Shown here piece after piece: positions 1-52,066 of a DNA stretch of 64,000 bases. Within the stretch, counting starts at the first letter, position 1; each line of letters opens with the position of its first letter. The translations under genes were made by a program, and so were the position numbers. Under the pieces are notes generated by a model, which saw nothing but the letters and a program-made list of their open reading frames with translations, was not told the DNA's origin and did not search any database. The stretch is from Beroe forskalii (lineage: Eukaryota > Ctenophora > Nuda > Beroida > Beroidae): positions 46,207-110,206 of the forward strand of contig WFMF01000549.1 in assembly GCA_011033025.1 (NCBI GenBank), read 5' to 3'.

Positions 1-3000
1 GGGGGGGGCATTTGAACATGATAAACCCACCCATATACGATCGATCTTTCTGCATAGCTTCCAGTGCATCCTCGTGGGTATTAAAGAAAACATACCCGTC
101 GCCCGAGGGGCGCCCGTCATCCCCCACACCCAGCTCAATGTGTTTGGGCATGAGGGGGGAGAAGAATTTGATGACATCCCCTTGGGACGCCTTAAAGGGG
201 ATCCCCCGGATAAAAACTTTATGTTCTTTTATCCCACCCCTGAGGAATGAGGGGTGTTTGAATCTTGGGGCTTCATGAAGAGGGGGGGGGATTGAAGAAG
301 ACCACATTTGAAAAATTTATGACAAAAAGACGCGCCACTCAAATTCATAGCGACGTTCGACGAGGGTCATCTGGGCATTTCGAAACTAGAGCCAACTGGA
401 GCATGAAACCCACATAAAAATGAACTTACTTCATAGTGGGCCAGCTGCTGGGATCCTTCTTTGGTTTCTGTGTATCCAGAGGTTGTTGGTGCTGCATTTC
501 CTTGAAGTTCGCTTTGAAAATCTCAATGTACCTAAGACATGAGAATGATTACGCCGACATTTTCTGATTTTTAATCTACACTTTCATAATACATAGCCCG
601 TATGTCAAAACCTTATAACTCGATTTGTACAGTTCCTTACAATATATAATTTTAATCAATATCGGGGTCGTTAAAATCACACAATACCTCTTTCCTATGG
701 CCTGCATGTGTTTCTCCAGAGCTGCAGTGGCTTCTTCCTGCCTGGAAAACTGAACATACGCCTCCCCCGTCATACGTCCTTCATTCTCTCTAAACTGGGG
801 ATTTTATTTGATCAATGAAAATTAAAATCTGTTTATGTGGTCTCTTCTGCAATAAATGGACGCCACGGTCATCTGGACGAAACAAATTTTGCGTACCATC
901 TGCACTGAACCATTGACCATTGACCAAGTTGTATCTTGATGTTAGTAACAATGTACCTTGATACTAGTAACTGACAGACCAGTAAAGAACTCCTTGACAT
1001 CATCCTCCGTCACGCTGAAAGGGAGTCCCCTCATCTTGACAACAGGAGAGTCCTTACCCCCGTAGGCTCGTTTGTTAATAGCACCCTTTTTCAGGGCACG
1101 AGCCAAGTCATTCTCATCGGACTCGTATATCTCAACGTACCTGTCAGGAGGAAGTCAGCGGATCTTTACTTTTAGTAGTTCAGTAGGTACCATTACGGCG
1201 GAAAAAGGATTGGTTACCTTAGTACATGAAATTAAGTAAGCAGAAAATTAAGCACTCCAGCCGCCAAAAATGCTTAATTTGATGTAACGTAGTAATGTGC
1301 TTTCTTAATTAAATGGTCCGACATTAAATGCGTTCTTAATTTATTTCAGAATCAAATCAAAACGTGCACCGTGCATATTTAACCATGTCATGAGATAATC
1401 AGACACATAAATATGATGTAGAAGAGATACACCAGTAATCGATTTAGGATAGTATGATTAATAATCAATGGGTGGAAGGGAGCTGGTATTTTCAGAGAGA
1501 TTTAGGAGTGTAGGAGTCCATTAGTAGACCAGCTACTAGACCTGTTCTCAAACATTCAAATTTGTGATTATTAAGAATTTAAGAAGCGTTGTAAAGTTTA
1601 TCAAAACTTTACAACACTACTTTGGGTATTTTATTCAATCAAATTTGAGACCTAAAGATGTCGTAGAACGACGAAATTGATTGTCATTAAAGAACCACAT
1701 CGTTTAGATTAGTACTTGTACCATTGAGTCAAGAGAGAATAAATAAATTACTCATCAATTGTAATCATGCGACTCTTATTCAACGACCCGATCCGTGAAA
1801 TCAATTTAAGAAGCCCAATGGATCATAATATTTACTTTTGTTATTTCCCTTAAATGAAAATGGTCTCATTCTTACTGCCTAAATTTAGCTCGAATCAATT
1901 ACTCAATCAGGTGAGGTGCAGGAAATTAAGAAAGCATTAAATTAAGTAGCATAAAATTAAGCACTGGGGTCACAAAAAATGCTTAATTTGGTGCTGCGTA
2001 ATATTGTGCCTTCTTAATTTTCGGAGTTCTTAATTTCCTGTACTAAGGTATTCTCCCTTTTCAGGTCTTTAATTAGGGTTTGAGTCATATAATTTTCTTG
2101 GGAGGTGAATGTATGAATGATATTAACTTGTAAAAGAATGGCTGCATTTCTTTACAGTATCTATTCATAATCACGTGAAAAGGGCCTCGTAGCCGAAGTC
2201 CAATAAGGCATACCCAGCGTTTACAGTGTTACAATGTGCGCATTGCGCTGACTTTTGATTTTACCACCCAATGGATCATATACCTTAACGTTGATGGAAA
2301 TGATTACATAATAATACAGATCATTAGAATAATTGTGTGTAATTATTAATTACACACAAGCTTGCAACAAAACATTGTGTGTATAGCAGCACAAATCCCT
2401 ATATAATTAGTATACTGTACACAAAACAAAAACCAGTGATCCAGTGGTTAATATCACATGGGAACCATTGTACCCCGGGTACCTGTTAACATGGCATAAT
2501 AATATGTACCTGGTGTACCTAGCATTGGGTTTTGTGCATGCATCTTATTAACCTCTTGTAGTTGTATGTAGTTGTATGTATGCGAACTTTGTTATGTAAT
2601 GAATTCATGGCCTGGTTACAGGATTGATTTACTTAAGCCGCTTGAATCTGCGTGATATTTTGACAGTTAATTCTGCAGATTGAACAGATAGCGATGCTAA
2701 TGCAAGTGACGAATGATTCGACAGTTTTTGGTGGAATTTGAATTCTTTTTAGATTATCTTCTTTTTTTCTACTGAATCTCTAACTTTCATTTGTGATTCA
2801 CTTCTTTTCTGTAATTTCGTTTTATACTATCGTTTCCACTAGCAAGCATAGAAGCATCAATAGAACATTCCAGTAACCGCCTTGTGACTTGCTGTATACG
2901 AGCCATGCAGCAAAAGTAAGCAGTTGTGAGTGATGTCATCATCAAGGTTTAACATGGCCTATAAATAACATCAAAAAGCAAATTTTTGCTTTCAAATCTC

Positions 3001-6000
3001 GTCATGTTAGGACGGTTACAAAGATTTAATCTGGTCGGATCTAGCACAGAAAATTGGCGTACGTTTAAATTTGAAAAGCTATCAAGTGATCTTGTATATT
3101 GGCATGACGGAAAAAATCAAAAATTTTAGCTCATCAAGAATAAAGACAGGGTTTTAATAATCGACAAATTTCGAACCAAAAAACATAAGTTCTGCGCAGT
3201 GCGAAGTATAAATTACATCACAATTCTATCAATAATAAGTGTAAATTTGTTATTGTCTTTAATTTTATCGTGATTATATTCTAATACTGATGCTTATTTG
3301 AGGAACACTCTTTTTAAAATACGAGCAAAAGTGTGTCTTGTATAATTTCGAAACGTCACTGTAACTCGTGTCGACTTGTAGCTTTAAAGATAGCCTTACT
3401 TACGACAGGAAAAGTCATATATTAAAAGATTCATCAAGTTTTGATTTTATAATTTCAATTATTTTCTTTGCTTTGTACATCGTTTATGGGAACAGTTGTC
3501 TTTGATAATATTTGTTGACAAATCCAAGCTGTAAACCGTAACATGACTCATTCAGGTACTAAGCAGTAATCGATATAACGTACACATGACCAGTGACCAC
3601 AAATATATCATAATTACTAAATTACTAATTAACTAACGAAACATACGATCATTATTCTTTATCAGTCGGTCCATGAGCCAATTATCATATTATGGAAAGT
3701 TCTCGATGTTTCCACTTTTAGAGATGTTCGTAGTTGGATTTCTCTAGTTGAGTCACATATGTAAACATTATGCAAATTGTAAGACGGCTATAACGTCATG
3801 AAACATTTCTAAGACGCCCATTTGACGTGGAAATTGCCTGATTGACTGAGAATTAGAGATAATCATTTATCATCCAAGGAGATAGTGTCTGACGATTATT
3901 TTTGGACTTCGTTTCGATAAATGCTAAGCTCATGAGTGCATAAGCTCATGTTCTTTGAATTTGATAAATTAAATTTGAATGTAAATGGTCACAATCCAAG
4001 CTATTTTTGTGGTCAATTTGCCGATGATATCAATATTAGTAATACTCATTATAAATACTTTAAATCCCGGAATCCTTCCAGAGAGTTTAGAAATGTAACC
4101 ATTATCCCCATGAACTGCAGTACTTTAGTACCAGTGGAGTGGGAAGTTTAACAAGAGTTTTAATGGTCTAGAAGAAGTGATAGTTCTCAGATAACCAACA
4201 TCTCAGAAAAATTTTTATTTCGTGGAGTCTAAAGATCTCAGGAAACAAGTCTGAAGATCACCATTCGAAAACACAGAAAAAGTAACCCAAACCCAGTGAG
4301 AGCGATAAAACGACCTCCTTAGATTGAACCCCACCAAATCAGATCCAAACCAGCAGCACATCACCATGATTCTCTCCCTCTTCCTCCTCCTTCTAACACC
4401 CCCAACACAGTCCCTCCAGTGTGAAATGTGCTCGGAGTACGAGATTTACGGGTACACCACCTTCATTGCTGATGTGGAGGACGATGATGGAGCTATTCTC
4501 CCACGATGTTCAGAGGTATTGATATTTAAACACGTACTTATTGGGTCAATTTGGGAAGCTTCCTATGGGTTGTATTCTGTTAAGACCAGCAGCCCGAGGG
4601 TCTAAACAAAACAACCCAGCATTTCCAGATTAGGGCGGAATAAGGATTGTTAAATAAGGATAACTTTGACACTTTGAAAATGATGAGAATGAACTTGCTA
4701 TCTGGGCCATTTCCATACACCAATTAACCTATCTAACTTTTCAGTATAAGAATTGAAAATAGTGACACTTTTCACTTTTTTCATTTCTCACGCCCCCATT
4801 TCTCTCTAAAACGTCACTTTCCCCACATCAGAGCCAGGCACAGAAGTGTGTCGTGACTCGGGTGGGAGCTCGTGTGTGTACTACGTGGTGAACACGGTCT
4901 ACCTGAAGGACAGGTTCACTCACCTCGAGAAGTACATCGTGAAGGGGTGCGCTAACGTAAGTCTTACATCGTCAAGGGGTGCGCAAACGTAAGTCTTACA
5001 TTGTCAAGGGGTGCGCTAACGTAAGTCTTACATCGTCAAGGGGTGCGCTAACGTAAGTCTTACATCGTCAAGGGGTGCGCTAACGTAAGTCTTACATTGT
5101 CAAGGGGTGCGCTAACGTAAGTCTTACATCGTCAAGGGGTGCGCTAACGTAAGTCTTACATCGTCAAGGGGTGCGCTAACGTAAGTCTTACATCGTCAAG
5201 GGGTGCGCTAACGTAAGTCTTACATCGTCAAGGGGTGCGCTAACGTAAGTCTTACATCGTCAAGGGGTGCGCTAACGTAAGTCTTACATTGTCAAGGGGT
5301 GTGCTAACGTAAGTCTTACATCGTGAAGGGGTGCGCTAACGTAAGTCTTACATTGTCAAGGGGTGCGCTAACGTAAGTCTTACATCGTCAAGGGGTGCGC
5401 TAACGTAAGTCTTACATTGTCAAGGGGTGCGCTAACGTAAGTCTTACATCGTCAAGGGGTGCGCTAACGTAAGTCTTACATTGTCAAAGGGTGCGCTAAC
5501 GTAAGTCTTACATCGTCAAGGGATGCGCTAACGTAAGTTTTACATCGTCAAGGGGTGCGCTAACGTAAGTCTTACATTGTCAAGGGGTGCGCTAACGTAA
5601 GTCTTACATCGTCAAAGGGTGCGCTAACGTAAGTCTTACATTGTTAAGGGGTGCGCTAACGTAAGTCTTACATTGTCAAAGGGTGCGCTAACGTAAGTCT
5701 TACATTGTCAAAGGGTGCGCTAACGTAAGTCTTACATCGTCAAGGGGTGCGCTAACGTAAGTCTTACATCGTCAAGGGGTGCGCTAACGTAAGTCTTACA
5801 TTGTCAAAGGGTGCGTAACGTAAGTCTAACATCGTCAAGGGTGCGCTAACGTAAGTCTTACATCGTCAAGGGGTGCGCTAACGTAAGTCTTACATCGTCA
5901 AGGGGTGCGCTAACGTAAGTCTTACATCGTCAAGGGGTGCGCTAACGTAAGTCTTACATTGTCAAGGGGTGCGCTAACGTAAGTCTTGCTCATTGTCAAG

Positions 6001-9000
6001 GGTGCGCTAACGTAAGTCTTACATTGTCAAGGGGTGCGCTAACGTAAGTCTTACATCGTCAAGGGGTGCGCTTAATCGTCAAGTCTTACATCGTCAAGGG
6101 TGCGCTAACGTAAGTCTTACATCGTCAAGGGGTGCGTGTGCGCTAACGTAAGTCTAACATTGTCAACGGGTGCGCTAACGTAAGTCTAACATCGTCAAGG
6201 GGTGCGCTAACGTAAGTCTTACATCGTCAAGGGGTGCGCTAACGTAAGTCTTACATTGTCAAGGGGTGCGCTAACGTAAGTCTTACATTGTCAAGGGGTG
6301 CGCTAACGTAAGTCTTACATTGTCAAGGGGTGCGCTAACGTAAGTCTTACATCGTCAAGGGGTGCGCTAACGTAAGTCTTACATCGTCAAGGGGTGCGCT
6401 AACGTAAGTCTTACATCGTCAAGGGGTGCGCTAACGTAAGTCTTACATCGTCAAGGGGTGCGCTAACGTAAGTCTTACATCGTCAAGGGGTGCGCTAACG
6501 TAAGTCTTACATCGTCAAGGGGTGCGCTAACGTAAGTCTTACATCGTCAAGGGGTGCGCTAACGTAAGTCTTACATCGTCAAGGGTGCGCTAACGTAAGT
6601 CTTAACGTAAGTCTTACATCTTCAAGGGGTGCGCTAACGTAAGTCTTACATCGTCAAGGGGTGCGCTAACGTAAGTCTTACATCGTCAAGGGTGCGCTAA
6701 CGTAAGTCTTACATCGTCAAGGGGTGCGCTAACGTAAGTCTTACATCGTCAAGGGGTGCGCTAACGTAAGTCTTACATCGTCAAGGGGTGCGCTAACGTA
6801 AGTCTTACATCGTCAAGGGGTGCTCGCGCTAACGTAAGTCTTACGTAAGTCTTACATCGTCAAGGGGTGCGCTAACGTAAGTCTTACATCGTCAAGGGGT
6901 GCGCTAACGTAAGTCTTACATTGTCAAGGGGTGCGCTAACGTAAGTCTTACATCGTCAAGGGGTGCGCTAACGTAAGTCTTACATCGTCAAGGGGTGCGC
7001 TAACGTAAGTCTTACATCGTCAAGGGGTGCGCTAACGTAAGTCTTACATCGTCAAGGGGTGCGCTAACGTAAGTCTTACATCGTCAAGGGGTGCGCTAAC
7101 GTGAAGTCTTGTCACATCGGGGTGCGCTGTCAAGGGTGCGCTAACGTAAGTCTTACATCGTCAAGGGGTGCGCTAACGTAAGTCTTACATCGTCAAGGGG
7201 TGCGCTAACGTAAGTCTTACATCGTCAAGGGGTGCGCTAACGTAAGTCTTACATCGTCAAGGGGTGCGCTAACGTAAGTCTTACATCGTCAAGGGGTGCG
7301 CTAACGTAAGTCTTACATTGTCAAGGGGTGCGCTAACGTAAGTCTTACATCGTCAAGGGGTGCGCTAACGTAAGTCTTACATCGTCAAGGGTGCGCTAAC
7401 GTAAGTCTTACATTGTCAAGGGGTGCGCTAACGTAAGTCTTACATCGTCAAGGGTGCGCTAACGTAAGTCTTACATCGTCGGGGCATCAAGGGGTGCGCT
7501 AACGTAAGTCTTACATCGTCAAGGGGTGCGCTAACGTAAGTCTTACATTGTCAAGGGGTGCGCTAACGTAAGTCTTACATCGTCAAGGGGTGCGCTAACG
7601 TAAGTCTTACATTGTCAAGGGGTGCGCTAACGTAAGTCTTACATCGTCAAGGGGTGCGCTAACGTAAGTCTTACGGTAAATTGAGCGCGCCAGTATCAGG
7701 CCAGTACCACGCCAGTATCGCGCCAGTATCAGGCCTACCTCACGCCGTTATCACGCCAGTATCGCGCCAGTATCTCGCCAGTAGCACGCCAGTAGCGCGC
7801 CAGTAGCACGCCAGTAGCGCGCCAGTAGCACGCCAGTATCGCGCCAGTATCGCGCCAGTCGGAACTAACTTTAAGCCAGGACGCCAGTAACACGCCAGTA
7901 TATGATCTGAAACTGACGTGCTACTGGCGTCCTGGCTATGTTGTCGACTGGCGTGATACTGGCGCGATACTGGCGTGCTACTGTCAGCCAACTACTGGCG
8001 TGCTACTGGCGCGCTACTGGCGTGCTACTGGCGCGATACTGGCGTGATACTGGCGCGATAACGGCGTGAGGTAGGCCTGATACTGGCGCGATACTGGCGT
8101 GGTACTGGCGTGGTACTGGCCTGATACTGGCGCGATACTGGCGTGATACTGGCCTCGACGGATCGCTCAATTTACCAGTCTTACTTATTATTTAGCTCAC
8201 GGCCCGTTCGCCGAGTTTGAGATCCAGTTTACGGAGCGGCCTCGTAACTGAGAGAATGACTCTGAAATTTCCTGTCGTGCGCCATTCGTACGTGCGTGAT
8301 TATATGATTCAACCGTGTAATCACTAATCACGTACAAACAACTCAAAATTTCAGACAATGATTCTCATTTCTCACCATGGCGACCCCAGCAGTCCGAGAC
8401 TAAACTCTCTTCAGAATATCCTTAAATTCCAGGTATCGTGTGAACCAATCGCAGCTATGACAAGATCCGAAGTGGAGTCGTCTGGCAACACAACAGTGGT
8501 AATTTCAGCGTCGTGCGACGTACTGGCACATTGCCAGACAGATTACTGTAACCATGGCAACGATAGAGACCCAAATATGGGGGTGGTTCTTAGTGCGATA
8601 GTGTTTGGGGTTTTGGGGGTGGTTTGGGATTGATCGATATACACGGTGGTTTTATGATAGGGTAATTTGATGTTTGGGAGTTTTTCAATTAAAACAAAAA
8701 AGATAAGTTCGAAAATAACATGTCACATTTATTATCTATGAACGATCATGTGTTACTTTTTATTGTATTACGTGGCAGTGCCAATTGTTATTCAAAAGAT
8801 TTTAATCGAAGTATATTGTATGATTATTATCAATACTATTTATTTAATTGAGAGGATTTAGTTTATGATATTAATTGTTTATCAAAAAATTGCCTTAGTT
8901 CAAAACTTTTAATCAATTTTGTAAAACTGTGTTTCTTTACGTTTATTTTTATTAGTGATATTGTGAAATTAATTTAAAATAATGAAAATAAATTTCAGAA

Positions 9001-9934
9001 TACACTATAACCAAGTTTTACTGCCTCTACCTTGATTCCATGTATTCATGATTCTTTCTAAGAGCGTTCCAGTAACTGTCTTCATCAGCAAATATCACGA
9101 AACATTCGCCAGATGGTCGCCCTGGAAAGAGAGTGGAGGGGTTAGAGAAGCTGAGATTTGGTTTTAAATGTGGCGGAAGGTTACATTCATTTGACATTCA
9201 TTTGGTCGCCCTGGGAAGAAAGAGGGGTTAGAGGAGATGAGGTTTCGTTTTAAATGTGGCGGAAGGTTACATTCATTTGACATTCATTTGGTCGCCCTGG
9301 GAAGAAAGAGGGGTTAGAGGAGATGAGGTTTCGTTTTAAATGTGGCGGAAGGTTACATTCATTTGACATTCATTTGGTCGCCCTGGGAAGAAAGAGGGGT
9401 TAGAGGAGATGAGATTTGGTTTTAAATGTGGCGGAAGGTTACATTCATTTGACATTCATTTGGTCGCCCTGGGAAGAAAGAGGGGTTAGAGGAGATGAGG
9501 TTTGGTTTTAAGTGAGCCGGAAAGTAACAGTCAATTGACAAACTGGAATCAATCAGCTCATTTGAAGGTATTAAATATTAATGAACTATAATCTAGTTGC
9601 TATGATGATAGCTATAGAAATCCACTGAGATGCGAGCGCTTCTTTAAAATATGTTCCCTCTAGCATTCTTCTGTTCTCTATTTTCTCAAGGAATTCCCCC
9701 ACTCATAACTCAGGACTTACCCTCATCGTTGTATGTGATGTGAATGCTTTCCTCCAGTAAATCCCTCACCCTCAACACTTACCCTCATCGTTGTATGTGA
9801 TGTGAATGCTTTCCTCGAGTGGCCCCCACAGCAGACTGTTGTTAAACCAAGCCTCCAGCTGTGCTTTGGTCGCCTTGAAGGGGATACCCCGACATCGCAA
9901 TATCCACCGGGGTTCCCACATGACACATTGAGAC
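1..9934 (-). CDS. hnRNP H/F-GRSF1-like RNA-binding protein, three qRRMs (3' end outside window)
   Basis: Six exons can be spliced in phase on the minus strand: 9934-9783, 9121-9031, 1140-957, 794-688, 531-430 and 239 to below 1. Three quasi-RRMs follow. qRRM1 starts with WILRCRGIPFKATKAQLEAW and runs through GRPSGECFVIF to YVEIYESDENDL. qRRM2 has VVKMRGLPFSVTEDDV, then GRMTGEAYVQF, then YIEIFKANF. qRRM3 has KVFIRGIPFKASQGDV and GRPSGDGYVFF. These are the hallmarks of hnRNP H/F, GRSF1 and related factors, which bind G-rich RNA and act in splicing or mitochondrial RNA handling. All inner junctions are GT-AG with matching phase. The first visible Met is in exon 9934-9783, but an earlier exon above 9934 is possible. 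The 7.9-kb intron hosts the Ly6-like gene on the other strand. Four of the splice junctions are tandemly duplicated. I cannot choose between hnRNP H/F and GRSF1. Confidence 0.9.
929..978 (-). repeat. Two-copy tandem duplication across a splice donor
   Basis: A unit of about 24 bp is present twice. One copy spans the donor of exon 1140-957 (exon end ...ATCAAG, then GTACAT on the minus strand). The second, diverged copy lies just inside the intron and has ATCAAG followed by ATACAA, so its GT is lost. Confidence 0.6.
1215..2050. mobile_element. TA-flanked MITE with TACCTTAGTACA termini
   Basis: The ends are inverted repeats: TACCTTAGTACATGAAATTA at the left and the complement of TACCTTAGTACAGGAAATTA at the right. 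Blocks rich in GCTTAATTT and AAATTAAGCA form a nested palindrome inside. A second member at 58243-59037 has near-identical ends and a recoverable empty site showing a TA target. No transposase ORF is present, so the element is non-autonomous. It lies in the large intron of the hnRNP H-like gene. Confidence 0.75.
2051..4323. other. Intronic AT-rich stretch, no feature recognised
   Basis: This is part of the 7.9-kb intron of the hnRNP H-like gene. I see no exon, RNA gene or clear repeat; short ORFs here lack codon structure or homology. Confidence 0.5.
4366..8633 (+). CDS. Ly6/uPAR-like small secreted or GPI-anchored protein, nested gene
   Basis: Three exons join in frame: 4366 to about 4515, 4834-4956 and 8433-8633. 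The product is about 157 residues. It starts with signal peptide MILSLFLLLLTPPTQS and then LQCEMCSEY, a typical LxCxxC opening of Ly6/uPAR three-finger domains. About ten cysteines follow, including a CDVLAHCQTDYCNHGN stretch that matches the closing C..C...CN signature. The tail VVLSAIVFGVLGVVWD is hydrophobic and fits a GPI signal. The start ATG has accATGa context. Exon 2 uses the second AG of CAGAG to stay in frame. The gene lies antisense inside the hnRNP H-like intron. Intron 2 is swollen by a 2.7-kb minisatellite built from the exon 2/donor junction. AATAAA lies near 8987. Ligand and function are unknown. Confidence 0.8.
4933..7674 (+). repeat. 32-bp minisatellite, about 85 copies, each carrying a splice donor
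   Basis: The unit is GTAAGTCTTACATCGTCAAG plus GGGTGCGCTAAC. The first copy overlaps the last 24 bases of Ly6-like exon 2 (4933-4956) and its donor, so every unit repeats the exon end ...GCTAAC and the donor GTAAGT. GTAAGTCTTAC is itself an 11-bp palindrome. The commonest variant changes ATCG to ATTG, which is what deamination of a methylated CpG would produce. Several units are truncated or scrambled (near 6071, 6593, 6824, 7100 and 7480). The period is not a multiple of three. Confidence 0.95.
7675..8176. mobile_element. 502-bp foldback MITE of 11-bp repeats with 8-bp target duplication
   Basis: The ends are inverted (GGTAAATTGAGCG at the left and its complement at the right) and are flanked by a direct duplication AGTCTTAC at 7667-7674 and 8177-8184. 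The left half is a run of 11-bp units such as AGTATCGCGCC and AGTAGCACGCC; the right half is the same run inverted. An 8-bp target duplication fits the hAT superfamily. The element landed inside the last unit of the 32-bp minisatellite, so it is younger than that array. Confidence 0.85.
9114..9512 (-). repeat. 86-bp minisatellite across the acceptor of exon 9121-9031
   Basis: About five copies of an 86-bp unit occur. Each contains, on the minus strand, the polypyrimidine tract and CCCAG followed by GGCGACC, the first seven bases of the hnRNP H-like exon. The true acceptor is the copy at 9121; the rest are decoy acceptors upstream of it. Confidence 0.85.
9717..9843 (-). repeat. 62-bp two-copy duplication across the donor of exon 9934-9783
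   Basis: The last 37 bases of the exon and its GTAAGT donor are repeated 62 bp further into the intron. Use of the distal donor would add 62 nt, which shifts the frame and meets a TGA at once. Confidence 0.8.
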
Positions 9935-10297
9935 CTAGTGTGAATAGGGAGGGTTAACGGGGTATTTTCTTACATTGGGACCTAGCGTGAATAGGGGAGG
10001 GTTAGAGGGGTACCTAAGAGTACATGACACATTGAGACCTAGTGTGAAGAGGGGAGGGTTAACGGGGTATTTTCTTACATTGAGACCTACTGTGAAGAGA
10101 GTTGGGTTAGGATGGGTGTTTTCTTACATTGAGACCTAGTGTGAAGAAGGGAGGGTTAGAGGGGTGTTTTCTTACATTGAGACCTAGTGTGAAGAAGGGA
10201 GGGTTAACGGGGTATTTTCGTACATTGGGATAGGGGAGGGTTAAAGGGGTACCTAAGAGTACATGACACATTGAGACCTAGTGTGAAGAGGGGTGGG
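9915..10297 (-). repeat. Minisatellite of about 50 bp across the acceptor of exon 9934-9783
   Basis: Seven to eight copies contain the plus-strand words ACATTGAGACCTA and GAGGGTTA. Read on the minus strand, each carries CTAG followed by GTCTCAATGT, the acceptor and exon start. Some units keep a longer exon piece (GTCATGT). Unit length varies from about 45 to 60 bp. Confidence 0.8.
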
Positions 10298-10931
10298 TTA
10301 GATATAAATTTAAGGTTTTAAGGTTAGTTTATACGTTTAATGCTTTTGAATAAGAAACCAATGATTAAATAAATCAACGGGTTGTGATATATTGGTGATT
10401 TCTCGGTATAAATTATACAATTACAAATAGCGTTAGAGTACAAAACAAAATCCTAATTCTCATCAAATCAACATAATACTTTCCTAAGGTCAGTCATGAT
10501 ATAAATTAACAATTGAGATAATTAATTGGCGATTTTGGTTGGACAAATCTTAAATTAAAACAGAATCAAATGTTTCTTAATTCGGAGAGGTGTTAGATCC
10601 AGATTTATGATCTTCAAGACGTCTAAACAAAAATTTCATGCTTATTAATTATTGTCTTAGGCTAGTAAAATGGTTAGCCAGTTGATCAGAAAGAATTGAA
10701 AACATTAAGCAGCGTTCATTTCAGTCAGTGCAAAATGGGCACTTGAAAACATTAAGCAGCGTTTAGTTCCTCAGTCTACAACCTACAACCCTTTGCTAGC
10801 ATAACAAACTTACATTAGTCGCTGGGAAAATATTACTTCAGAAATTACTCACTCAGAAAAACCCCTTATCAGGGCATTATATGTACAGATTACAGAACAA
10901 CTCAAGATTCACTCAACTCCCCCCACTACAT

Positions 10932-13900
10932 TTAAGCTCGTATCTTCCTGCATATCTCTGCAGTGTACTCAGGATTGGTAGCACGGCCTCCTATGTCACC
11001 CGTTACCACTTTCCTTTCCTGGAATGAAGGAGGTGTAGTGAGTAGTGATTGCTTTAGTTGCAAAGCATGAAATATTGGAGCTTGATGATTACCCCTAGGA
11101 CCCAGTTATAATCACAAATAATCATGGACCGATTCGAATAACTGATGACTACCCCTCGGGTAATGGAAAAGAATCACAAATAATCAAGGACCCAATTTTA
11201 GAAGAATATTAAAATTTATCATCTCTATTCCGTCTAGAAGGATCTCCTACCATGAGAGTTGAGAGGACAGCCTTCTCGATGAGATCAGCCTGAGACTTGA
11301 GTTCCAGGTGACGTAACATCATCAGACCTGACATCAGCAGAGCCGTGGGGTTGCCTTTATTCTGAAACATTTGATTTGAAGATTCTAGAGAAAAAATGAA
11401 CTTCCTTTATTCTGAAAGCATTGCAAAATAAATCGTTTTTGAAGATTCCAGAGAAGATTCCAGAGAAAACATGAACAAAAGTTCATTTCATTCTTAATTG
11501 TTTGATAACAGTTACGAGACGCCATTTAACTGGATTTTCTCACAGGAAAATTTCAGTTTTTTACAAAATGGAGGCCACAGGGCAAAATTGCATTTAAATT
11601 CATTCTAACTCGATTACTTTCACAACATGGCGCTCAGATAATCTGATCATGACAGCTGGTAAAACTTGGACCAATCAGGACTGACTTCATGACCAAATCC
11701 ACCAATAGAACTCGAACCTTGTCACGAAATTTGATTTTAATGAACCTGGTCGTTAATAAGAATGGGAGTTTGTTCACTAATAACCAGGTTTCGAATCATG
11801 AGTTGCAGGATGTAAAACTCATGGCAAAAGTGACGTCATTATCATCATCTAGAATGGTGTATTGATAACGTAAAATATCCCGTTACTGGTGAGCAGCAAT
11901 CCTGTGATAGCCAGGAACTTACCATACCTTACCATTAACAGCTGTGTTCATTGTAACTCCATTTTAACATTTCCCACGTACGGCAAAATCCAATCAACAC
12001 CAAATAATAAGGTGACATGATTACGGGGTGACTTAATCCAATAACCACGAAACAAATCACGCCATGTTGTCCAGCAAAACCAATATAAAAGTCCTCCGCT
12101 CTCTGCAGAACCACTTCTACCGAACTCAAGTCTACCACGCACAACAACACCAAATCTCTCTCTCAAGTGTTCTCGCTGTTGTCACTCTCCTACACCGATA
12201 TGCAGCTGACAACACTCCTGCTCTCCCTGACACTGCTGACAACAGCTGCTCACGCCAGTGTGGGCATGTGTATCCATGACAACAAGATCTACCTGGAGGG
12301 CGAACAGTTCACGGATCAGTGCAGCATGTGCGAGTGCGAGGCTGATGGAAAAGTCACGTGCGACGGTACGTGAAATACAATGATTTCAATTTAATTTAAA
12401 CGAGTTAATGATCATTTTGTTTTCCAATAGCATCTACCCCGATGTGTATACGTATCAAGTCATAATATCTTTGAATCAATGTTGTCAAATCGTCAACAAT
12501 GTACATGCTCCAAATCGGTCAAGAACAGTTTCATGAATCTGATACTCTTTACTCCCCCTAAACCTTCTCTCTCAGTTAAACTCTAAACACCCCTAAACCA
12601 TATCTCCTTCCTCAGGTAAACTCTGTCCTCCCTGCACCTACATGGGACCTACAGGAAGACCATCAGTACCACCGGACAGTATAACGACGGGTGTAACAAC
12701 TGTATCTGCACCATCACTGGCGAGGCTCTCTGTACGGACATCTACTGCCCCTCACAAGTGTCATGCTACCAATGACGAGGGGATCATGGGATGGATCCCC
12801 TTCGATGCATCCCTGACTCTAAAGTCGGAGAAGGAGGGGTGTGTCAAGGTGTGCACGTGCAAACCTAACAGGTTCTGGTTGGGATCAGCGCTGTATGAGT
12901 GTGAGGATAAGTGCGAGTAAAGGGCGTCAAATGGGGACATTGTTGAGAAACAGGACATTGTTGATTATGAGTATGCAGCATTATAGCATCCAGGTTCCAA
13001 GACTTTATTGGAGTTTTGATAATGTTTTTTGATCTGAAGTTAACTTAGCGTTCGGAGTGCATGTATTAAAAAAATATTGAGCAATCACTGAGCAATTAAC
13101 AATGACACCGAAGGACGAGTTGTTAATTGACACTCCCGGGCGATTATCAACTTTATTCATTCATGAGCCAGATGCTTAGATCGTACCACACAATTTTGTT
13201 TGTAATTATCCCGACGATAAATAATGTTATATTTACATTTGTACGGTATTAGAAATGCCATTGTTTAAAAAATGTTTAAGACGCTGTGTTTCTTTTTGAT
13301 ATTCCAGAAATTGAAATATGAATTAAATCGATTGAAAAGCAAGTTAAAATACTGTAGACTTATGCACTATAAAAACCTCAGGACTTGAGGCATAATGCAT
13401 ATTGCATATAATTTCCTTACGTCTATTTTACGAGTCCCTCATTTCAGCACGAGAAGCTGTTATGGCGTTAATGCGTTATTTTTTAACATTTTCATTCGCT
13501 TTGAGAGCAAATATGTTCCCAGGCACTTGTTCATTTGTTCAAGCATTCTTAAAAACGACAAAAACAACCCCATAGCCTGGTCATTGGCCTACCTTAAATA
13601 CGAATAATTAAAATACTCGTCTGTGTAACCTGAAACAGCCCTGAACTTCGCACAGCAGACAATAGAAGAATAAAGTGGGTATCGAATGACACTCGGTGTC
13701 GCTGCTAAATGCGGCTAACATCTGTGCACTATTTCATACAACTACACAAGATTCCTACGCACAAATATAGCTGATTCTTATACATAATTTATTATAGTAT
13801 GTTGTGGGACGTTGTTATCTCTGATCTATGAATGTTATACTTATCTTTTTGTATTTTCTCGTAACAACGTTAACCTCAACTCATTGCGTCATTAATTTGT

Positions 13901-16900
13901 TTGGTTATCAGGCTTTTCGTTTTCCTGGCGAATCTTGGTTCTAATTATATTTCATCATTTCTTTATTTCGCTTTTTGAATTTTATGAATTAAATTACGCC
14001 TTACTAATGGTTGGTTGTCTGACTGGTAGTCAGTACAACCAAATTATTCTTTAGTGTCAGACTGGTTGTCCATGCAACCAAATTACTCGTTAGTCATTCG
14101 ATATTAGAGGCCTTATGAATGACGTCCCAAGGTTATTATTCTGAATAATACTATGATGCGTTTCTTTACTTTTGTGTTTCATTCAAACCAGAACATAGAA
14201 TCCCGGACAGATTGCTTCTTTAATTTTCATAGCATGCTAACGTATATCTCACTATACAAAATACATCATGTACAAGCTATAGAATATACAATACATTATA
14301 CAATATACAGTACACAGCAGCAACTTTTCAAACAACAGTTGCAGCTTCATAGCAATAACCAGTATTAGCTTTCTAAGACAACGAATGAAGTGTGGTATAC
14401 AGTGTCACCATGGTGACTCGACCTTTCAAGAGCAGAGTTTTACGCCGCGCAAGATCAATTTCTGTGGCGCGTGATAGCGCTCAAATGTGCTTTACTGAGT
14501 GAACTACGCAAAAATAACATTTGTGCGCACTGTCAAGTACCACAAAAAGCATGGCGTAATACGCCGCGCCTAAAAAGGTAAAGACACTACAGCTAGTGTT
14601 CAGTATTTTATGTGGTGACGTGTGTTGCTCACAGTAGACAGTACCTTCTTCGTGGAATGGATAATTTTGACTTCCAATTTGAATTGTGTAGTGAGTAGAT
14701 GCCCATATTTGTGACATTTCATAATCTATATTCTCCTTAGTTCTAATATATAATCTCTATAAATTTGAAGTGGGTACTGAGTAGCATAAGTAGGAAAATG
14801 TCGACTCGAATTCTCCTCCCATTTTCATTCTTCCAATAACTTCCCTTTATTCTATGCTTGTGAGGTTGTGACATGCTGATCTCCTTTATATTTACAGTAC
14901 TCAATTTGACGTACGACTTGACAGTGTTTTAAATTCACTGCAAATCTCAGTTAAACGTTGTAGATTGTAAAATCGGGACAGTTATTTCAACCATTTTCAA
15001 TATTAGCAAAACCTTTATGAGTTGATTCCGACCGTCAACCTCTCAATGGTGATAGATCATTGAACCTACAACGCTAGTCACATGGCCTTTAAAATAACTT
15101 AATTAAATTCGACAATTATGTGTGAATTTGCACTATAACCACACAGACTTCTACTGAATACCCCTATTGAGTGCATTTCTGCGGTAATTGCAGCCGCCTT
15201 GTAACATGTTCTATGTTCGAGTATCTTTGTGCTTATGTGATGTTGTAACTACATTTTTAACTTTTCGACCATTTTCTACAAGTACATGTTATTGTTCAAT
15301 GTTCAAGAACGTTTTGTGAAAAGGTTTTGTTTATTCGATAGTTTATAACAGATACTACACAGTACATTTACGAAGTTTTTCTTTGCATTCATGAATTCTT
15401 AGTTTCAACGAATCGAAAAGCCTAGAAAGCTATTTTCGTCTCTATCACCTGGCGCCAAAACGTACACTGAACTAGTGCACTATAATTCAGTGATTTTTGA
15501 GCGTGATGATCTTTTTCATTAAAGTTGTACGGTATAAAAAGTCAGTGGACCAGGTGGCCAGTGAATTGAATTCCAAGTGAAATCATATATGATCTGATTT
15601 TAACTCTATATCATGTCAAAATCCAATCAAATGGTGAATTTTCGGGAAGCCAATGTATTTACAATAATAAAAAGTTTGCTACCATTAAAATCATGTTGCT
15701 TACGTGTTCCGTAAGATCATCAGCAGTTCCGTGGACTGCTTCGTAAATAGCGATACCACCACTTCCCATGTTACCACTAGGAGCGAGGCCCAGTCCACCG
15801 ATCAAACCTGAAAGTATATTGAATCCAATTTAAAGAAATACCTTTCGAATGTTTGATAAAGGAGTAGTTTAACCAATGTTCAGGACCAGTTGTACAATGT
15901 ACAACACAACGTGATACATAAAGCCTTTGCAATTTGAGGCTACTTAGTTCAGACAGGAACATATGACGCATACCAGGTAGATGCACGAATTCCTGAACTA
16001 AAGAGTCGCTCAGTAACGATATATCAGTTGCTGTCAGCAGGACTTTTCCTACTTCGCGATTATAGTACAACTACAACTCTACAAGTTGCATAGATACGTT
16101 TTCATGTGTTGTTGTTACTGATGAAGCGGGCTAGGATAAAGTTCGATTCAAGCACCTTGTTCTCAAAATGGGCCAAACCACGGATTTTCGGGTCTGGAGA
16201 ACTTTACAGAGTAACCATGGAGACGAGTGAAGAACAGTGGAATCAGCGTGGACCCTCCCTAGTAGGCTACCACCCAGCCCTTGCAACGCTGCTGGGTTCC
16301 GTCATGGACAAATACTACAACCCCACTCATCTGACTTACAAACGGAAGTTGGTTAACTTGACGGACGGAGGGATGGTGGCGGTGGACGAGATAACGGACC
16401 ACACCGCCACGCCAAACCCCGCCCTCCCCAACATCCTCCACCTGCCGGGCGGCGGGATGCACACCTTCTCCCCGCGAACCCGCCGGATCTCCGACTGGTT
16501 CCTGCAGGCGGGGTTCCCCGCCGTCTACATCGCTAACAGGCGGGGCTGCTGTCACGTGCCCCTCTACACTCCCCGTATCTCCTTGTTTGTAAAGGAGTAT
16601 AACGACACCCCCCAGATAGTGGACCGTTTAGTCGCAGATCAGCCTCACAAGAAGTGGATACTGATTGGGAGTTCTCTGGGGGCTGCTCAAGCACTCGACT
16701 ACCTGTCTCACGCGAGTTCAGACAGAGATGAAGTGATCGGAGGTGTGTTTGATAGTTCGGTCTTCAATGGGGCCCGGTGGCTGAATACCATGCTGAACGA
16801 CAACTGCTACACCATCCGTAAAATCATCGAAATAAACATTAAATTGTGGGCCCGGGAAGTTTTTAAGAACCCAGCAAATGATCAGGTTAGAGAAGAAATA

Positions 16901-19900
16901 GCCCGACTTGTAGATAAGGACAAGTTCACGGAGAAAAACATAAAATCCCTGAATCGGGATGAGTTGGTACACCTCCTCTATTACGACCTTATGGCCAACA
17001 TGTGTCGAGACAGCTCAATACCCCTCAAAACACCGGAGGACTTCCACATGAACGCTTTCCCCTACTACACCAACGCCACGCGGTCCTTCATGAAGATCAA
17101 CAAGCCGGTTGTCATGGTGATCAGCCAGGATGACCGCATGGCAGAGGTGGTGGAGGAGGATCTCAGTGTCATGATGGAGAACCCTAATCTGTGTCTGTGG
17201 ATGTATGCGGGGGGCGCGCACATGCGGTACACCGCCTCCTACTTTCCTTATCACTCGTTTCTCAAGGAAGTGTACTTGGAAAACGTTAATTTGTTAGCTA
17301 CATCACAGTTATAATCGAATGTTCTAGTGTGTGTGATTGATTTCATAGATTTTTGAATTGTGTTTGAAACCTTCTCAGAAATAACTGACAGTATAGCAAG
17401 AATCATTTTGTATCATCAAACAACTATTTAATTATTCATATATGAAAAGTATTATAACCATGGTGTCTCGACCTTTAGCTTTTGAGGCATAACATAAAAG
17501 AGCACGTTTGCGTGATATCACTCGCCGTGAAAAAAGTGCACAAGCTTGTCGTGATACGCCGCGCCTCAAAAGGTTGCGACAAGACGGCCAATTTAATGGT
17601 CAGTCTGAATACCTGAGGTGAGGTCGCTGAGGATGTCCCCGTAAAGGTTCGGCATGACCATCACATCGAACTGGGAGGGGTCTTTGACGATCTTCAGAAC
17701 GGCAGAGTCTAGATACATCTCCCGGTACTTGATTTGAGGGTACTGAGATGAAAAGGCGGTTGAGATGACGTCATCATCATAGCTCAAAGTAGTAAGATGA
17801 TGACGTTAAAATTCCCATTTATTTACGCACAGGCTTTTTTTCAACTTCTCAATGAGGGGTTAATGTGTGGGAAATATCTAACGAACGGGAGCAAGACTTC
17901 TAAAAGTTTAAACTTTGTTATTTCATCCGGTGCTGTCAAGAAAAGAACCTAAATATAACGTACCTTCTCTGCAACTAATCTGCACTGTTCAAGGAACATT
18001 CCATCTGACATTGACATGATGTTAGCTTTATGTAGCGCGACAACGTTCGACCGATCGTTGTCAATGGCGTATTTGAAAGCGTACTCTGCTACGTTCCGGC
18101 TTGCATCTCGTGTGATAAGCTTGACACTTTGAACCACCCCAGGGACAACCTGCGAGGAATTCGGTTAAGAAGAAAACTTCGTTCATTTCTGACAGCAGGA
18201 CGCAGGTAGCCATGATCGAAGCTGAATTCTGGAACAAGACGCCATAATTGTTCAAGAAGTTTTGGAGTATGTATTAAAATCTAGGAATGATGGATTAAAC
18301 TTTACACAAACCCTCTGCTTCCACTCACCGTGTGCTCTATGCCCGAGTACTCCCCCTCAGTATTCTCCCGGACTATCACACAGTCCACCCCTTCCTTCGA
18401 GTAGGGCGTCTCCACCCCTGGTACTGTCTTGGCAGGCCTCACGTTCGCATACAGACCGAACGTGCGCCGGATCGTAAGGTTCAGGGAAACGTGACCTTTG
18501 CCGATCGCAGTCCGCATTGGGCCTTTCAGACCGATCTTGTTCTTGAATATGGAGTCGATAGCTGGCTGAGGTATCCTCGTTTTACCATTCTTCTCTGAAA
18601 ATTACAGTTTACAATATGAATTCGTTAATCACGAAATTCTCGGAAGAGGTTAAGAGTTTAGTCATAGAATCATCGGTATTGAAATAATGTACGTTTGACC
18701 ACTGCTCTGTTCCGCCCGATTTTAGTTCTTCTAAATCCGGCGGGATACCTATCGGACAATTGCAAATTTCACATACCAACTTTAAGACTTTGACACCACA
18801 CATGCACTTTGCTAGCAACCCACTATTTGCGGTAGTAATACTGCAGAATCAGAGGATGGCTCGCTTGATTTGGAAGGGAATTAAAATAAATTGCGAAACG
18901 TGCGTGCGCGCCGCGCGCGCGTTCGTTCAAATTTTTCCGAGAAATTAATGTCCTATCATGACTGTGTCATCGCGCGCAACAACTCAGTCAAAATATTTGT
19001 GGACTGTCCCAAAATTGGCGCCTTTCTATTTAGAAAGGATTGCCATACCCCCACAAAACCGGTCTAAATATAATAAATTCGATTCAACAAGATACTTCTT
19101 GTTCGAACTCAACGCAAGAGGTATACAGGTATCTTGAAATTAAACCAAAAGCATTTTGATATCGTTAAATCATCCCAAAGTTGTAATAGGCCGAAACAGT
19201 GGTTCTAGAATAAACAGTGTAAAGGTAAACTCGTATCACAGTGAAAGGGTTTCCAGGTCAACTAAAACAAAGGTTCAAGGTCAATTGAAGAAGAAAAGTA
19301 AAGCATATTAGGATATTACCATGTGAAGGTGCCAACTGGTGTCAATGTGAACAGGTAAACAAGTAAATTTCTAGCGTTGTAGTCAATGGTGTGAGGACTG
19401 AGGGCCAACTTGAGATACAGAAAACTAGTTTCGTGGGTAAACTGGTGCCAGGTTGAAATGGTGCCAGCTTCAGTTGCTAAAAAGGGGACCTTAATGACGT
19501 ATCATGTGCCAACACGACGTTATTTCAATGAAGCAGTTGATTCAGTCGTATACCACAAGCTCATGTGACTCGTTCAATGAGATATTCTCTCTCATTAAAA
19601 TGAAGCTTCTAGATAAAATGAGGCACCTAGAAGTAAATTAATGTTAAGCCTCTCGCTTTTGCAAGTACGAGTTAAATGATGTCAAATTATGCTAAAAGTC
19701 ATAGGCTAGCTGGAATTTAACAGTTAGAATCAAAGGGATTTCCAAAATTCAACAAGCCTCAGCTTCCGAACTGCAAGTGGTCCTTTTTATCATATGAAAA
19801 CAAAAATTTCCAATATTTCCAGAACAACTATGACACCACACAACACAGAATTCAGTAGACATGGGCCACACCCGTCACCACTGTACCCATCTGGCCTACC

Positions 19901-22900
19901 TTTCATCTTCGGCATGTTACAAGTAGGGTGTGATGCATTTGCCGTGGCACAGCTTTGCGTGAATATGGAGGCAATCCACTCCCTACCATTCCACCACCAT
20001 TTGTGGCAGTCAATGAAGTCAGGTTTGTCAGGCCAGGTATTGCAGCCACTCCCATCACATTCCATACACTTGGCTGGGTCCTGGCAAGTCTTCCTGATTC
20101 CGCATCCAAACTTGTTACGTTCTGGCGAGTCAGGTCCATCAACAAATATCAGAGGTCGAGCGCAGCTCGCTGAGGCAATTGGCACAAAAACGCAGAGGTA
20201 AACTCTCGTACTCTTCCCTTGTTGCAGCAGTCCCTGACTTGCAGTACCTAAATTTATCAACATCATTGCATTTGGGCCCAACACAAGATCTGCACCAGTC
20301 ACTATACTGAGAACATAAGGACCGTTTAGTACCGCAGAAGCTCATTGAGGCATGGTCAGGGAGGGTAGGAGGGTGATCAGGAATCACCAGTCTACAAATG
20401 GTCCAACCTCTCCTGACTGGTGGCATGTAGTAGAATGGATCACATCTCACAGTGGCTACTTCACCCTTCCCTTTAACCCAAAGTCGGGTGGAATCGTTGT
20501 AAATGTAGTTCCAACAGCTGTAAAGCTCGTTATCACTGTTGCAATTATCATAATAGCAGTGAATACCATGGTCGAAGTGGTGTGTAACTGCACATCCCCA
20601 CATATTCTCTGCTGTTGCAATGTATCCAACAGTGGGGTGGTATCTCGGTCTTTCACAAGCCTGTGCACTGTAAGATAGGCTGCACGTTTTCGGAATCTCG
20701 TGATTATTTCTTGGCTTTATATCCATTACTTGTGTACAATTAATGTCTGTCTGTACTCCATATAGATTAACAGTCAGAAGAATCAACACACCCACTGGAA
20801 CCACTGGAACCGCTATTTCGCAATTCATCAAGTATTTCTCTTGAACAGGGGAAATATGTAGCCTGCTGGTATAAAAACGATAAGATTCTATAACATTGTG
20901 ACTAAAAGAATATGGGTAAATCTTGTAGGAATAACAAAATGTCAAAACGAACAATCTGTGCCCGAATTTCCGTAATCCGTTTGTCAGTTTTTGAGATATC
21001 TGATGAATTCAAGCACCTTATTCGCATTTGGCCTTTATGTACCTTGGGACAAAAAATCGAACCATATTTAACCGGCCCTTTGGGCACGGTTGGGCAAGAA
21101 ATTTTCAAGCAGTTTCCAAACCAAGTATTTTGTTGTTTAAAAATAACCAGTAAAACTCAGTTGACAAAGGTAACGGCAATACTTTTTGACTGTTACGCAA
21201 AATTTGACGTGGACAGGCACAACTGACGTCGAATGAGTAGAAGTAGTTAAATCATGGAGAACAAACGTGAGCGTGTGACTTTTATACACTCTGAGCCGTT
21301 TCATAAGTGCTGGGCTAATCTAACGAATTGACAAGTTATCAGTTTAACATCGTTCTCAAGAATTGAAACTTGTAAAGTTATAATCTTGCTAATTGTGTAT
21401 TATTTAGTCAAAAGAAAATCACAGATTTACAAAAGCTGACTTTTATATCATTGTTATTAGGTACTGTGCAGTATCTTACTCTATTCTTCTATGTTTCAAT
21501 TGTGTTAAATATCAAACTTCATTAAATGAAGTTTGATATTTAACATAATTAACCGTAGATACTGCACACAAGTGGGGATATAATAGTATAACGAACAACA
21601 ATGAACAAATCAAAATCTCTCGAAGAGACCTTATGAATAAGCAGCAATAAGCAGTGACTGTGGTGGTTATTATGTTTAATACTAGTAGGCCCGTTGGGCC
21701 TGGTTGATAATAAGATAATACATAATCAAATACTGAGCTCAGAAAAAAGTTTATAAAGGAGCCTAACAATATTCGGTGGTCAATTCTAGTAATGCTGGAC
21801 CCGAAAAGTTTTGATTTTTGCGATTGTAGAGTGAAATTAAATCTGAAAATTAAAACGGAGTATCGTACTCATACTGAACGTTTAATTCACGTCAGGAGCA
21901 GTCTTCCAAATTAACAATGTGTTATGCCCAAACTTGATTCAATTTTAAATAGCTCTAAATAGCTCTAAATCCACATTCATTTCCGTTTAGATATTATCAA
22001 CTCAGCATTGATTTAAAGCAACCCGACGTCTGCCACAGATTTATGAAGGGATGCTATCGGAAATAGCCTTGACGATGCTAGCCCATACTCGTTCTCTGTC
22101 TTCAGATTAAATGCAAAACAGTTAACACGTCATTCTTTCAAACGTTACAACGCAGCAGTCAAAAACGTATCAGAAAGCACTTGCATGGAACTGATAATAA
22201 TCTGCACGTGAAAAATACCTGTATCCGTAGCAACAGCGCGACTTAGCCTGGCTTAGCTTTCGTTTCTCTTGATATTTTCTTGGCAAGCTCAAATTTAATT
22301 GTGTACAGCGGCACAGACAAACATTATTCACATGTGACTTTACTTTAAATATAAGACTAGCAGGCAAATACACAGCTCACTCGGCACTGCTATGCAGCAC
22401 CTCATTCGCAAATTTCAAACCCCACAATTCAAATCAGCTAAAAACTTTTTACTGCATGAAAAAAAATCCCAGTCCAATCAAAAGTTACAGAACTTTTCGC
22501 ACTCAATACAGCCTTAAATGGAAATGCACGCATGCAATTAATCTGCACATGCATTTTACCCTTTTCGCGCGCTTGTTGCCATGGGATGTGACGTACAGAG
22601 AAACACAATCTGTGATTTTATATAAGAGACTAGCAGGCCCGTTGGGCCTGCAAATACACAGCTCACTCGGCGCTGCTACGCAGCACCTTGTTCCTAAAAT
22701 TTAAATCAACTTAATACTTTTTACCACATCAAAAAATTCCAATCATATCAAAAGTTATTAATCTCCAAAATCAAAACAACATCAAACAGAAATGAACGTG
22801 CACACAGTCAATCTGCACATGCATTTCCCCATTTCACACGCATTGCCTTGGGGGCGTGACGTCAGAGAGAAAAAACAGAATTTGTGACTTTATAAGAAAG

Positions 22901-27674: not shown

Positions 27675-27680
27675 AATAAA
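27675..27680 (+). other. Polyadenylation signal of the homeobox gene
   Basis: AATAAA about 270 bases after the stop codon, in AT-rich 3' sequence. Confidence 0.5.
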
Positions 27681-46785: not shown

Positions 46786-46937
46786 ACATGGCAACATACG
46801 TGAATTGTTATGGCAACATACATGAATTGTCATGACAACACATATATGAATTGTGATGAAAACATATATGAATTTTCAGGGCAACATATATGAATTTTCA
46901 AGACAACATATTATAATATGAATTGTCATGGCACGCG
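46786..46937. repeat. 22-25-bp tandem repeat, about six copies
   Basis: TGAATTGTCATGGCAACATA is the core; copies drift (GACAACA, GAAAACA) and shorten. Confidence 0.75.
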
Positions 46938-48272: not shown

Positions 48273-48406
48273 CTGTTGCACTGGTGTGTTCTAGCGACTC
48301 TGGTGACTTGTTGTTGACGACATGATCCTGTGCCAGCTCCATGAGAACTTCGTGTCGTAAATCAGAGGTGGGTCTCTGGGGTGCTTCCTCTGCCTCCATA
48401 ACCAAT
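48273..48406 (-). CDS. Isolated coding exon, gene unknown
   Basis: Between acceptor CCTCCTAG and donor CAACAG|GTTTGT the minus strand encodes LVMEAEEAPQRPTSDLRHEV, then LMELAQDHVVNNKSPESLEH and TSAT. The sequence is polar and acidic, with no known domain. The exon is 134 nt, entering with one base of a codon and leaving with one. Support is the open frame, good splice sites and the fact that its acceptor edge seeded a minisatellite, as at proven exons nearby. Partner exons are not identified. Confidence 0.5.
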
Positions 48407-48850
48407 CTAGGAGGGAGAGGGGGTTAGGGTGGGATGCCTCTGCCTCCATAACCAATCTAGGAGGGAGAGGGGGTTAGGGTGGGATGCTTCCTCTGCCTCC
48501 ATAACCAATCTAGGAGGAGGGGGTTAGGGTCCGGTGGGGTGCCTCCTCTGCCTCCATAACCAATCTAGGAGAGAGGGGGTTAGGGTGGGATGGCTCCTCT
48601 GCCTCCATAACCAATCTAGGAGGGAGGGGGTGGTCTCTGGGGCTCTGGGGTGCTTCCTCTGCCTTCATTACCAATCTATAAAAAATCAGGGTCAGGGAGG
48701 GAATCAGGGTTAGGCTTGGGTAAAATTCTGAAATGATTCCTCTTTCTTTATAGCCAGTCTAGTAGGGAGGGGGTTGGGATGGGGTGGTCTCTGGGGTGCT
48801 TACTCTTTCTCCATAGCCAATAAAGTAGGGAGGGGGTTAGGATGGAGGTG
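48383..48850 (-). repeat. Minisatellite (about 52 bp) across the acceptor at 48406
   Basis: Six good copies (48383 to about 48680) and two to three diverged ones (to 48850). On the minus strand each has CCCTCCTAG followed by ATTGGTTATGGAGGCAGAGG, the acceptor and first 20 exon bases. Unit length ranges from about 50 to 60 bp. Confidence 0.85.
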
Positions 48851-51732: not shown

Positions 51733-51834
51733 TCTATATATAAAGTACAACTATGGTTTATCTGATACCATTCCTACTTTTCAATACCGTCTTAACTAGC
51801 ACAAGATATCAGATTCTATATCTCTTCCTCTTGC

Positions 51835-52066
51835 CTTCAGGGAAAGAAACATGTCCAACTGCACCTCTTAGTAACTACAGCTAAGGTGCTGTATCCCTAC
51901 TATCTTCAGAGAAAGAGGTATGTCCTAGTGCACGTCTTAGTAACTACAGCTAAGGTGCCGTATCCCTACCTCTTATCGTCAGGGAAGGTAACATCAGTAA
52001 CCCGGGCTGTATCCCTACCTCTTATCATCAGGGAAGGTAACATCAGTGACCCGGGCCTGCACTCCA
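51835..52066 (-). repeat. Tandem duplications across the donor at 52019
   Basis: The block CGGGTCACTGATGTTACC, TTCCCTGATGATAAGAG, GTAGGGATAC (minus strand; exon end then donor) is repeated at about 51958-52005. Two more diverged copies lie further into the intron. The mirror exon at 63309 keeps fewer copies. Confidence 0.75.

Follow-up and report, generated by a model that had tools for sequence, protein, structure and literature searches.

Tandem duplications straddling exon-intron junctions in a 64-kb stretch of the Beroe forskalii genome share the anatomy of amphioxus mirages

Minisatellite-like tandem duplications that cross the border between exon and intron occur repeatedly in a stretch of 64,000 nucleotides of the ctenophore Beroe forskalii (contig WFMF01000549.1 of GenBank assembly GCA_011033025.1, positions 46,207 to 110,206 of the forward strand; the whole stretch is called the window below and coordinates are window positions). 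A sequence-only reading of this DNA had named ten exon edges at which a tandem unit spans the junction, and this was borne out at all ten: each edge reaches a score of 11-28 in a duplication scan that queries every base boundary for local duplication across it. The affected boundaries comprise five donors and five acceptors, on both strands and with units that differ between genes. Clear arrays were found at 4956, 9121, 9783, 9934, 30440, 48406 and 52019, while at 957, 11361 and 12616 the repeats are either short or inexact. These arrays are probably minisatellites of the type called mirages in amphioxus, produced by recurrent local duplication, tolerated as the exon-proximal splice site still works, and subsequently subject to array turnover. 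The ten arrays are as follows.

930..971, minus strand: donor of the RRM exon, edge 957; 22 bp x 1.9 according to Tandem Repeats Finder (TRF), scan score 11 at an offset of 22.
4933..7674, plus strand: donor of exon 2 of the Ly6-like gene, edge 4956; 32 bp x 85, the units consisting of the exon end and GTAAGT.
9114..9540, minus strand: acceptor of RRM exon 2, the exon beginning at 9121; 86 bp x 4.9.
9715..9816, minus strand: donor of the 9121-9783 intron, edge 9783; spacing of 62 bp, with about 40 of the 62 bp shared.
9918..10298, minus strand: acceptor of the first RRM exon of the single-RRM gene, edge 9934; about 48 bp x 7.8.
11352..11474, minus strand: acceptor of IDH3A exon 7, edge 11361, placed by the alignment of IDH3A to PDB 5gre_A.
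12556..12622, plus strand: acceptor of exon 2 of the VWC/pacifastin gene, the exon beginning at 12616; about 40 bp x 2, with branch point, pyrimidine tract and AG duplicated.
30190..30459, minus strand: putative donor, edge 30440, placed by open reading frame (ORF) and splice consensus only; irregular units of 41-46 bp.
48377..48678, with degenerate copies to about 48843, minus strand: putative acceptor, edge 48406.
51835..52056, minus strand: putative donor, edge 52019; 49 bp x 2 over the donor, followed within the intron by an adjacent 69 bp x 2.

The status of these edges as splice junctions is supported for six of them and putative for four. Protein homology (RRMs, IDH3A, VWC/pacifastin) fixes the edges at 957, 9783, 9121, 11361 and 12616, where conserved segments are joined in frame, and the edge at 4956 is based on the ORF and its cysteine pattern. 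At 9934 the RRM exon has homology support and the exact acceptor is putative, as are the edges at 30440, 48406 and 52019. The 9121-9783 intron splits the RRM between NDEG and RPSGE, and the RRM_1 match of the joined protein spans the join; this intron carries arrays at both ends, with different donor and acceptor units. Since conserved protein segments are encoded by the exons at 957, 9783/9121, 11361 and 12616, the duplications lie at existing junctions rather than at new introns, in agreement with what had been proposed.

Measured repeat structures agree with the earlier estimates at 4956 (32 bp x about 85), 9121 (86 bp x 5) and 9934 (about 50 bp x 7-8), and required correction elsewhere. 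The duplication of about 24 bp x 2 claimed at 957 is present, with a second, intronic copy that has lost its GT, and the 62 bp x 2 at 9783 is right as to spacing, with about 40 of the 62 bp shared. At 11361 the unit given as about 52 bp x 2 is a 14-base junction match with a spacing of 50 bp into the intron, together with a 12-bp repeat, and at 12616 (about 41 bp x 2 claimed) the spacing is 40 bp and 82% of a 34-base probe is matched, with a scan score of 11. An array does cover the putative donor at 30440, where about 45 bp x about 9 had been counted, with seven extra copies found instead of a clean ninefold repeat. The unit at 48406 is about 50 bp, with five close copies or seven when degenerate ones are counted (about 52 bp x 6-8 before), and the about 50-60 bp x 2-4 at 52019 resolves into the two adjacent duplications listed above. 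Eight transcription units are involved by the present annotation, not seven, and both strands are indeed represented. The claim that the units are unrelated between genes holds by reading and in a self-comparison of the window (E 1e-8, low-complexity filter), which returned no match between the junction arrays of different genes except 52019/63436, a pair described below; shorter motifs could escape this threshold.

The extra copies lie on the intron side at all ten junctions, which fits the intron growth suggested earlier as an outcome. According to the scan, arrays start 13-36 bases within the exon at donors and 6-27 bases at acceptors; 9783 and 9934 were merged in the scan, and their in-exon extents were read by eye as about 32 and about 17. 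In four of the five acceptor arrays the units hold a branch-point-like CTAAC, TTAAC or CTAAA, a pyrimidine tract and AG; the unit at 9121, for instance, contains a branch-point-like CTCTAAC, a pyrimidine tract, CAG and 8-9 exon bases. The GT or AG is intact in 107 of the 110 copies found, 83 of which belong to the 32-bp array, where GT is kept in every copy found (83/83), and 101 of the 110 equal or exceed the authentic site when scored with a generic weight matrix (82 of them in the 32-bp array). When this array is excluded, GT/AG is kept in 24/27 and the authentic matrix score is reached or exceeded in 19/27; the copy search tolerated two mismatches, which favours copies with kept signals. 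Signals were lost in the copy at 957, in two of the seven copies at 30440 and in one degenerate copy at 48406.

The copies are potential decoy splice sites, and the exon-proximal site is probably the one that splicing of the RNA uses. At each of the five junctions where the nearest decoy was read through, its use would yield a shortened protein: for the RRM donor, the RRM acceptor, IDH3A and pacifastin a stop codon occurs within the added sequence, and in the Ly6-like gene the first donor leads to a 157-aa ORF through exon 3, while the donors at +32, +64 and +96 would lead to a stop after 110, 102 and 102 aa, the nearest of them through a frame shift. This truncation favours use of the exon-proximal site. 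The distance from decoy to authentic site is a multiple of three in 29/107 cases (25/83 in the 32-bp array and 4/24 elsewhere), and since no bias toward multiples of three is present, the idea that decoys diversify the protein was rejected. A gradient of copy age with distance from the exon was also considered; it looked plausible at 52019 and was not found in the 86-bp or 32-bp arrays.

A natural comparison is offered by the edge at 52019, which has an inverted paralogue in the same window, listed here.

63282..63560, plus strand: inverted paralogue of the exon and donor at 52019, its own donor following base 63436; tandem duplications absent, scan score 0.

The exon end and the first 13 intron bases are identical at the two sites, and the 49-bp unit at 52019 extends from within the exon as far as the 13th intron base; the 63436 copy is diverged and has neither the 49-bp nor the 69-bp duplication. 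The pair belongs to an inverted duplication (50007-55338 / 55883-63978) with segments that are 73-95% identical and a central gap of about 545 bp (55339-55882). Which of the two states is the older can be given only as an inference. The second arm of the inverted duplication also carries arrays of 170-175-bp tandem repeats, at 59855-60440 and 61707-62767, which belong to one family and lie in opposite orientation.

For the frequency of straddling arrays, a manually compiled list of 26 junctions was used, drawn from the RRM, Ly6-like, IDH3A and pacifastin genes on the basis of homology, ORF and splice consensus. Seven edges that were uncertain (9934, 30440, 48406, 52019, 63436 and two others) are left out of it, and 12 of its entries come from the IDH3A gene (10932..23525, minus strand). 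The P values below were all computed post hoc. A score of at least 11 is reached by 6/26 listed junctions, against 10.8% of the boundaries of the window and 0.07% of those in three first-order Markov sequences. The acceptor of exon 2 in the Ly6-like gene, which the frame places after base 4833, scores 0. Compared with random placement in the window, six arrays straddle a junction against 2.1 expected at full length (P 0.013), five against 1.7 for arrays below 1 kb (P 0.025) and six against 1.2 for arrays reduced to seed size (P 0.001). With the Ly6-like gene removed, five of the remaining 22 junctions were straddled (P 0.024 and 0.003). Within introns (16.8 kb), with manual division of one merged array and a simplified handling of nested genes, 6/12 arrays straddle against 1.5 expected under the seed-size null (P 0.0014), 4/9 at threshold 12 (P 0.016) and 4/7 at threshold 14 (P 0.011). 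When all 33 junctions are taken, a set that includes the picks of the earlier reading itself, nine events are counted against 1.5-2.7 expected. Splice-like sites elsewhere in the window reach a score of at least 11 in 24/244 donor-like and 31/369 acceptor-like cases when only the four long arrays are masked; with long and junction arrays both masked the figures are 7/222 and 4/335, a comparison that is biased toward the finding and was not relied on. An excess of straddling arrays at junctions is likely, with modest support.

Several observations weigh against this conclusion and against the interpretation as mirages. The window is a single one, chosen because it shows the feature, and the junction list was made by hand after the finding had been read. 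Half of the six straddled cases are weak, with scores of 11 at 957 and 12616 and a match of 14 bases at 11361, and thresholds 12 and 14 leave only 4/26 junctions. The per-base binomial test is marginal (P 0.055), and TRF arrays alone (32 after merging, 12.6% of the window) give three straddling cases against 1.8 expected (P 0.27), the default TRF score omitting the two-copy cases at 9783, 11361 and 12616. For the earlier proposal of a process focused on junctions, enrichment is supported by the array-level scan tests, and mutational targeting is not established. Database homology is missing for four of the ten junctions (the protein at 30440 has no Pfam match) and for the Ly6-like gene. In addition, conservation of the splice motif slightly exceeds that of the remaining unit in the five arrays examined of the ten (0.993/0.969, 0.983/0.958, 0.867/0.827, 0.953/0.935 and 0.905/0.789), which would fit some selection, although weakly, the comparison being confounded by a few variable columns and by consensus units that are crude.

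The phenomenon is already named in amphioxus, a name absent from the sequence-only reading. In mirages an exon-intron boundary, 5' or 3', is repeated in tandem in the manner of a minisatellite, AG/GT is kept in many copies and splicing is reported to be undisturbed (PMC3087553, PMC3902484). They were reported gene by gene, in Adh3 (via PMC3087553), the globins BflGb6/BflGb9, TnC and PGBD5 (PMC3902484 adding PGBD5 and citing TnC), with a mechanism called unclear (PMC3087553, PMC3902484). In the open-access literature, among the matches listed, mirages were named only in amphioxus papers. The units measured in the window (22-86 bp) fall within the reported range of 10-72 and about 150-160 bp (PMC3087553) or 60 and 108 bp (PMC3902484). 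As in amphioxus, they span the boundary, affect both 5' and 3' ends and are gene-specific, and on account of this same anatomy the Beroe arrays may be filed under mirages; unlike in amphioxus, they occur at 6/26 listed junctions, and at up to ten, within 64 kb, at both ends of one intron and in up to 85 copies. As regards length polymorphism or somatic instability, a further trait by which mirages are judged, this single sequence offers the observation that the 52019/63436 paralogues differ by the duplications. In human segmental duplications, minisatellite expansion with an average unit of 30 bp was described at exon-intron boundaries of paralogues, where half of the repeats lie in coding exons and boundary repeats can form new introns (PMC2812944), whereas all extra copies appear intronic here. 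Two further parallels were dropped: the minisatellites of earthworm metallothionein genes sit inside an intron (PMC12783039), and those described in C. elegans concern regulatory motifs, not boundaries (PMC4039745).

Under the mirage interpretation, a short local tandem duplication would capture an existing junction, that is, the last exon bases with the donor or the 3' end of the intron with the first exon bases. The extra copy would become intron and be tolerated because the copy next to the exon continues to provide a correct join between exon and intron, and slippage or unequal exchange would later expand some arrays (2 to 85 copies) in a presumably neutral turnover.

A different cause of the excess, compatible with the same anatomy, has to be taken seriously even if it is held as the less probable view: duplications may arise at equal rates across introns and simply be lost or go unrecognized less often at junctions. 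A pair that crosses a junction has one copy under purifying selection, so that it would diverge more slowly and be detectable for longer, and duplications internal to exons would be purged. The modest size of the excess, about 3-5 fold in the scan tests and less than 2 fold and non-significant with TRF arrays, speaks for such survivorship; anchoring alone would be expected to yield an excess of at most about 2 fold. Against it, some junction arrays (32-bp and 86-bp) are almost uniform, and anchoring matters little there. Tolerance and the slower divergence of junction-anchored copies could account for part of the excess. Selection that keeps extra donors or acceptors for the regulation of splicing, through dead-end or premature-stop transcripts or kinetic buffering of a weak site, is improbable. 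The many intact and strong signals counted above, largely those of one array, the joint presence of branch-point-like sequence, tract and AG in most acceptor arrays and the slightly better conservation of the splice motif would all suit it, yet array homogenisation alone yields high identity, the signal was lost at 957, 30440 and 48406, and distances show no preference for multiples of three. Selection for extra splice sites, raised in the earlier reading, is not established, and alternative protein forms are disfavoured by these distances and by the truncations predicted at the five junctions.

Creation of the introns themselves, by tandem duplication of an AGGT-containing sequence (Rogers model) or by introner-like insertion, is very unlikely. 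An intron of the potato RdRp gene did arise by tandem duplication across an intron-exon boundary, and the duplication resembles the acceptor arrays in that it includes a branch site, a tract and a 3' splice site (PMC4974935); unlike in potato, a new intron is not evident here and existing introns grow at one end. The arrays occupy a single end of introns that reach 4.3 kb in length, the 9121-9783 intron has different units at donor and acceptor, none of these junctions shows a new intron bounded by two duplicated AGGT copies, and in place of one family common to many introns the units differ between genes. It would be equally surprising if the arrays were an artefact of assembly or a product of chance. 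By reading, the frame changes without a clear intron at 12616-12920 and 30444-30840, as if by one-base indels, which would reflect assembly error, a haplotype difference or a decaying gene; indels may consequently be present in the assembly or haplotype, with copy numbers that may be incorrect, and the test with TRF arrays alone is also in keeping with chance. On the other side stand the very low rate in the Markov sequences and the presence, at many loci, of several arrays with diverged and distinct copies.

The genes and coding segments of the window were assigned as follows.

1-1150, minus strand: hnRNP H/F-like RRM gene (RRM_1, E 1.1e-15; hnRNP H in PDB).
4366-8633, plus strand: Ly6-like gene, a 157-aa ORF over three exons, no Pfam match.
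About 9028-9934, minus strand: single-RRM gene (RRM_1, E 5e-7 for the joined protein).
23525 to 10932, minus strand: IDH3A (Iso_dh, 5.7e-87; alignment to PDB 5gre_A).
12189-12920: VWC/pacifastin gene within an IDH3A intron (Pfam VWC 3.4e-8, the match spanning the join; Pacifastin_I 7.8e-8).
16118-17314: alpha/beta-hydrolase ORF within an IDH3A intron.
About 19812-20672: cysteine-rich ORF within an IDH3A intron.
26127-27407: homeobox ORF.
29.5-30.9, 48.3-48.4, 52.0-52.2 and 63.3-63.4 kb: less certain coding segments.

The introns of IDH3A hold at least three other coding segments, on both strands. The encoded protein is identical to a human core in 172/290 aligned columns, with a bit score of 373 against human compared with 322 for human against yeast; a chordate IDH3A would be expected to be much closer to human, and this divergence would speak against an amphioxus source. 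Rfam at gathering threshold and ARAGORN gave no matches in the window. In the two RRM genes (795-957 and 9121-9783) the introns interrupt the same domain at positions that differ, by eye, by about five codons, and both carry junction duplications, which may bear on intron sliding. The 32-bp array is immediately followed, within its intron, by two blocks of 11-bp repeats (7688-8153) with mutually reverse-complementary consensus units, and a dispersed inverted pair of 1.3 kb with about 70% identity (21689-22902 / 50428-51724) is possibly a mobile element. With its nested genes and its tandem repeat content by TRF, the window resembles the genome of the ctenophore Hormiphora, for which 13% TRF repeats and many nested genes were described (PMC8527503), a resemblance only.

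A window in which 6/26 listed junctions carry arrays, and in which a pair of paralogues differs by such duplications, raises two questions that are testable genome-wide: whether splice junctions are mutational hot spots, and how the spliceosome distinguishes the authentic site from dozens of equivalent ones nearby. As to the former, junctions may be true hot spots or only regions in which duplications persist and can be recognised for longest, alternatives that a single window cannot separate. It is rather doubtful, on present grounds, that junctions are a preferred target of ongoing duplication in an animal lineage other than amphioxus, perhaps in connection with co-transcriptional splicing. 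If this were the case, complete splice-site modules would be laid into introns at a large fraction of junctions, which would drive intron growth and provide raw material for intron sliding.

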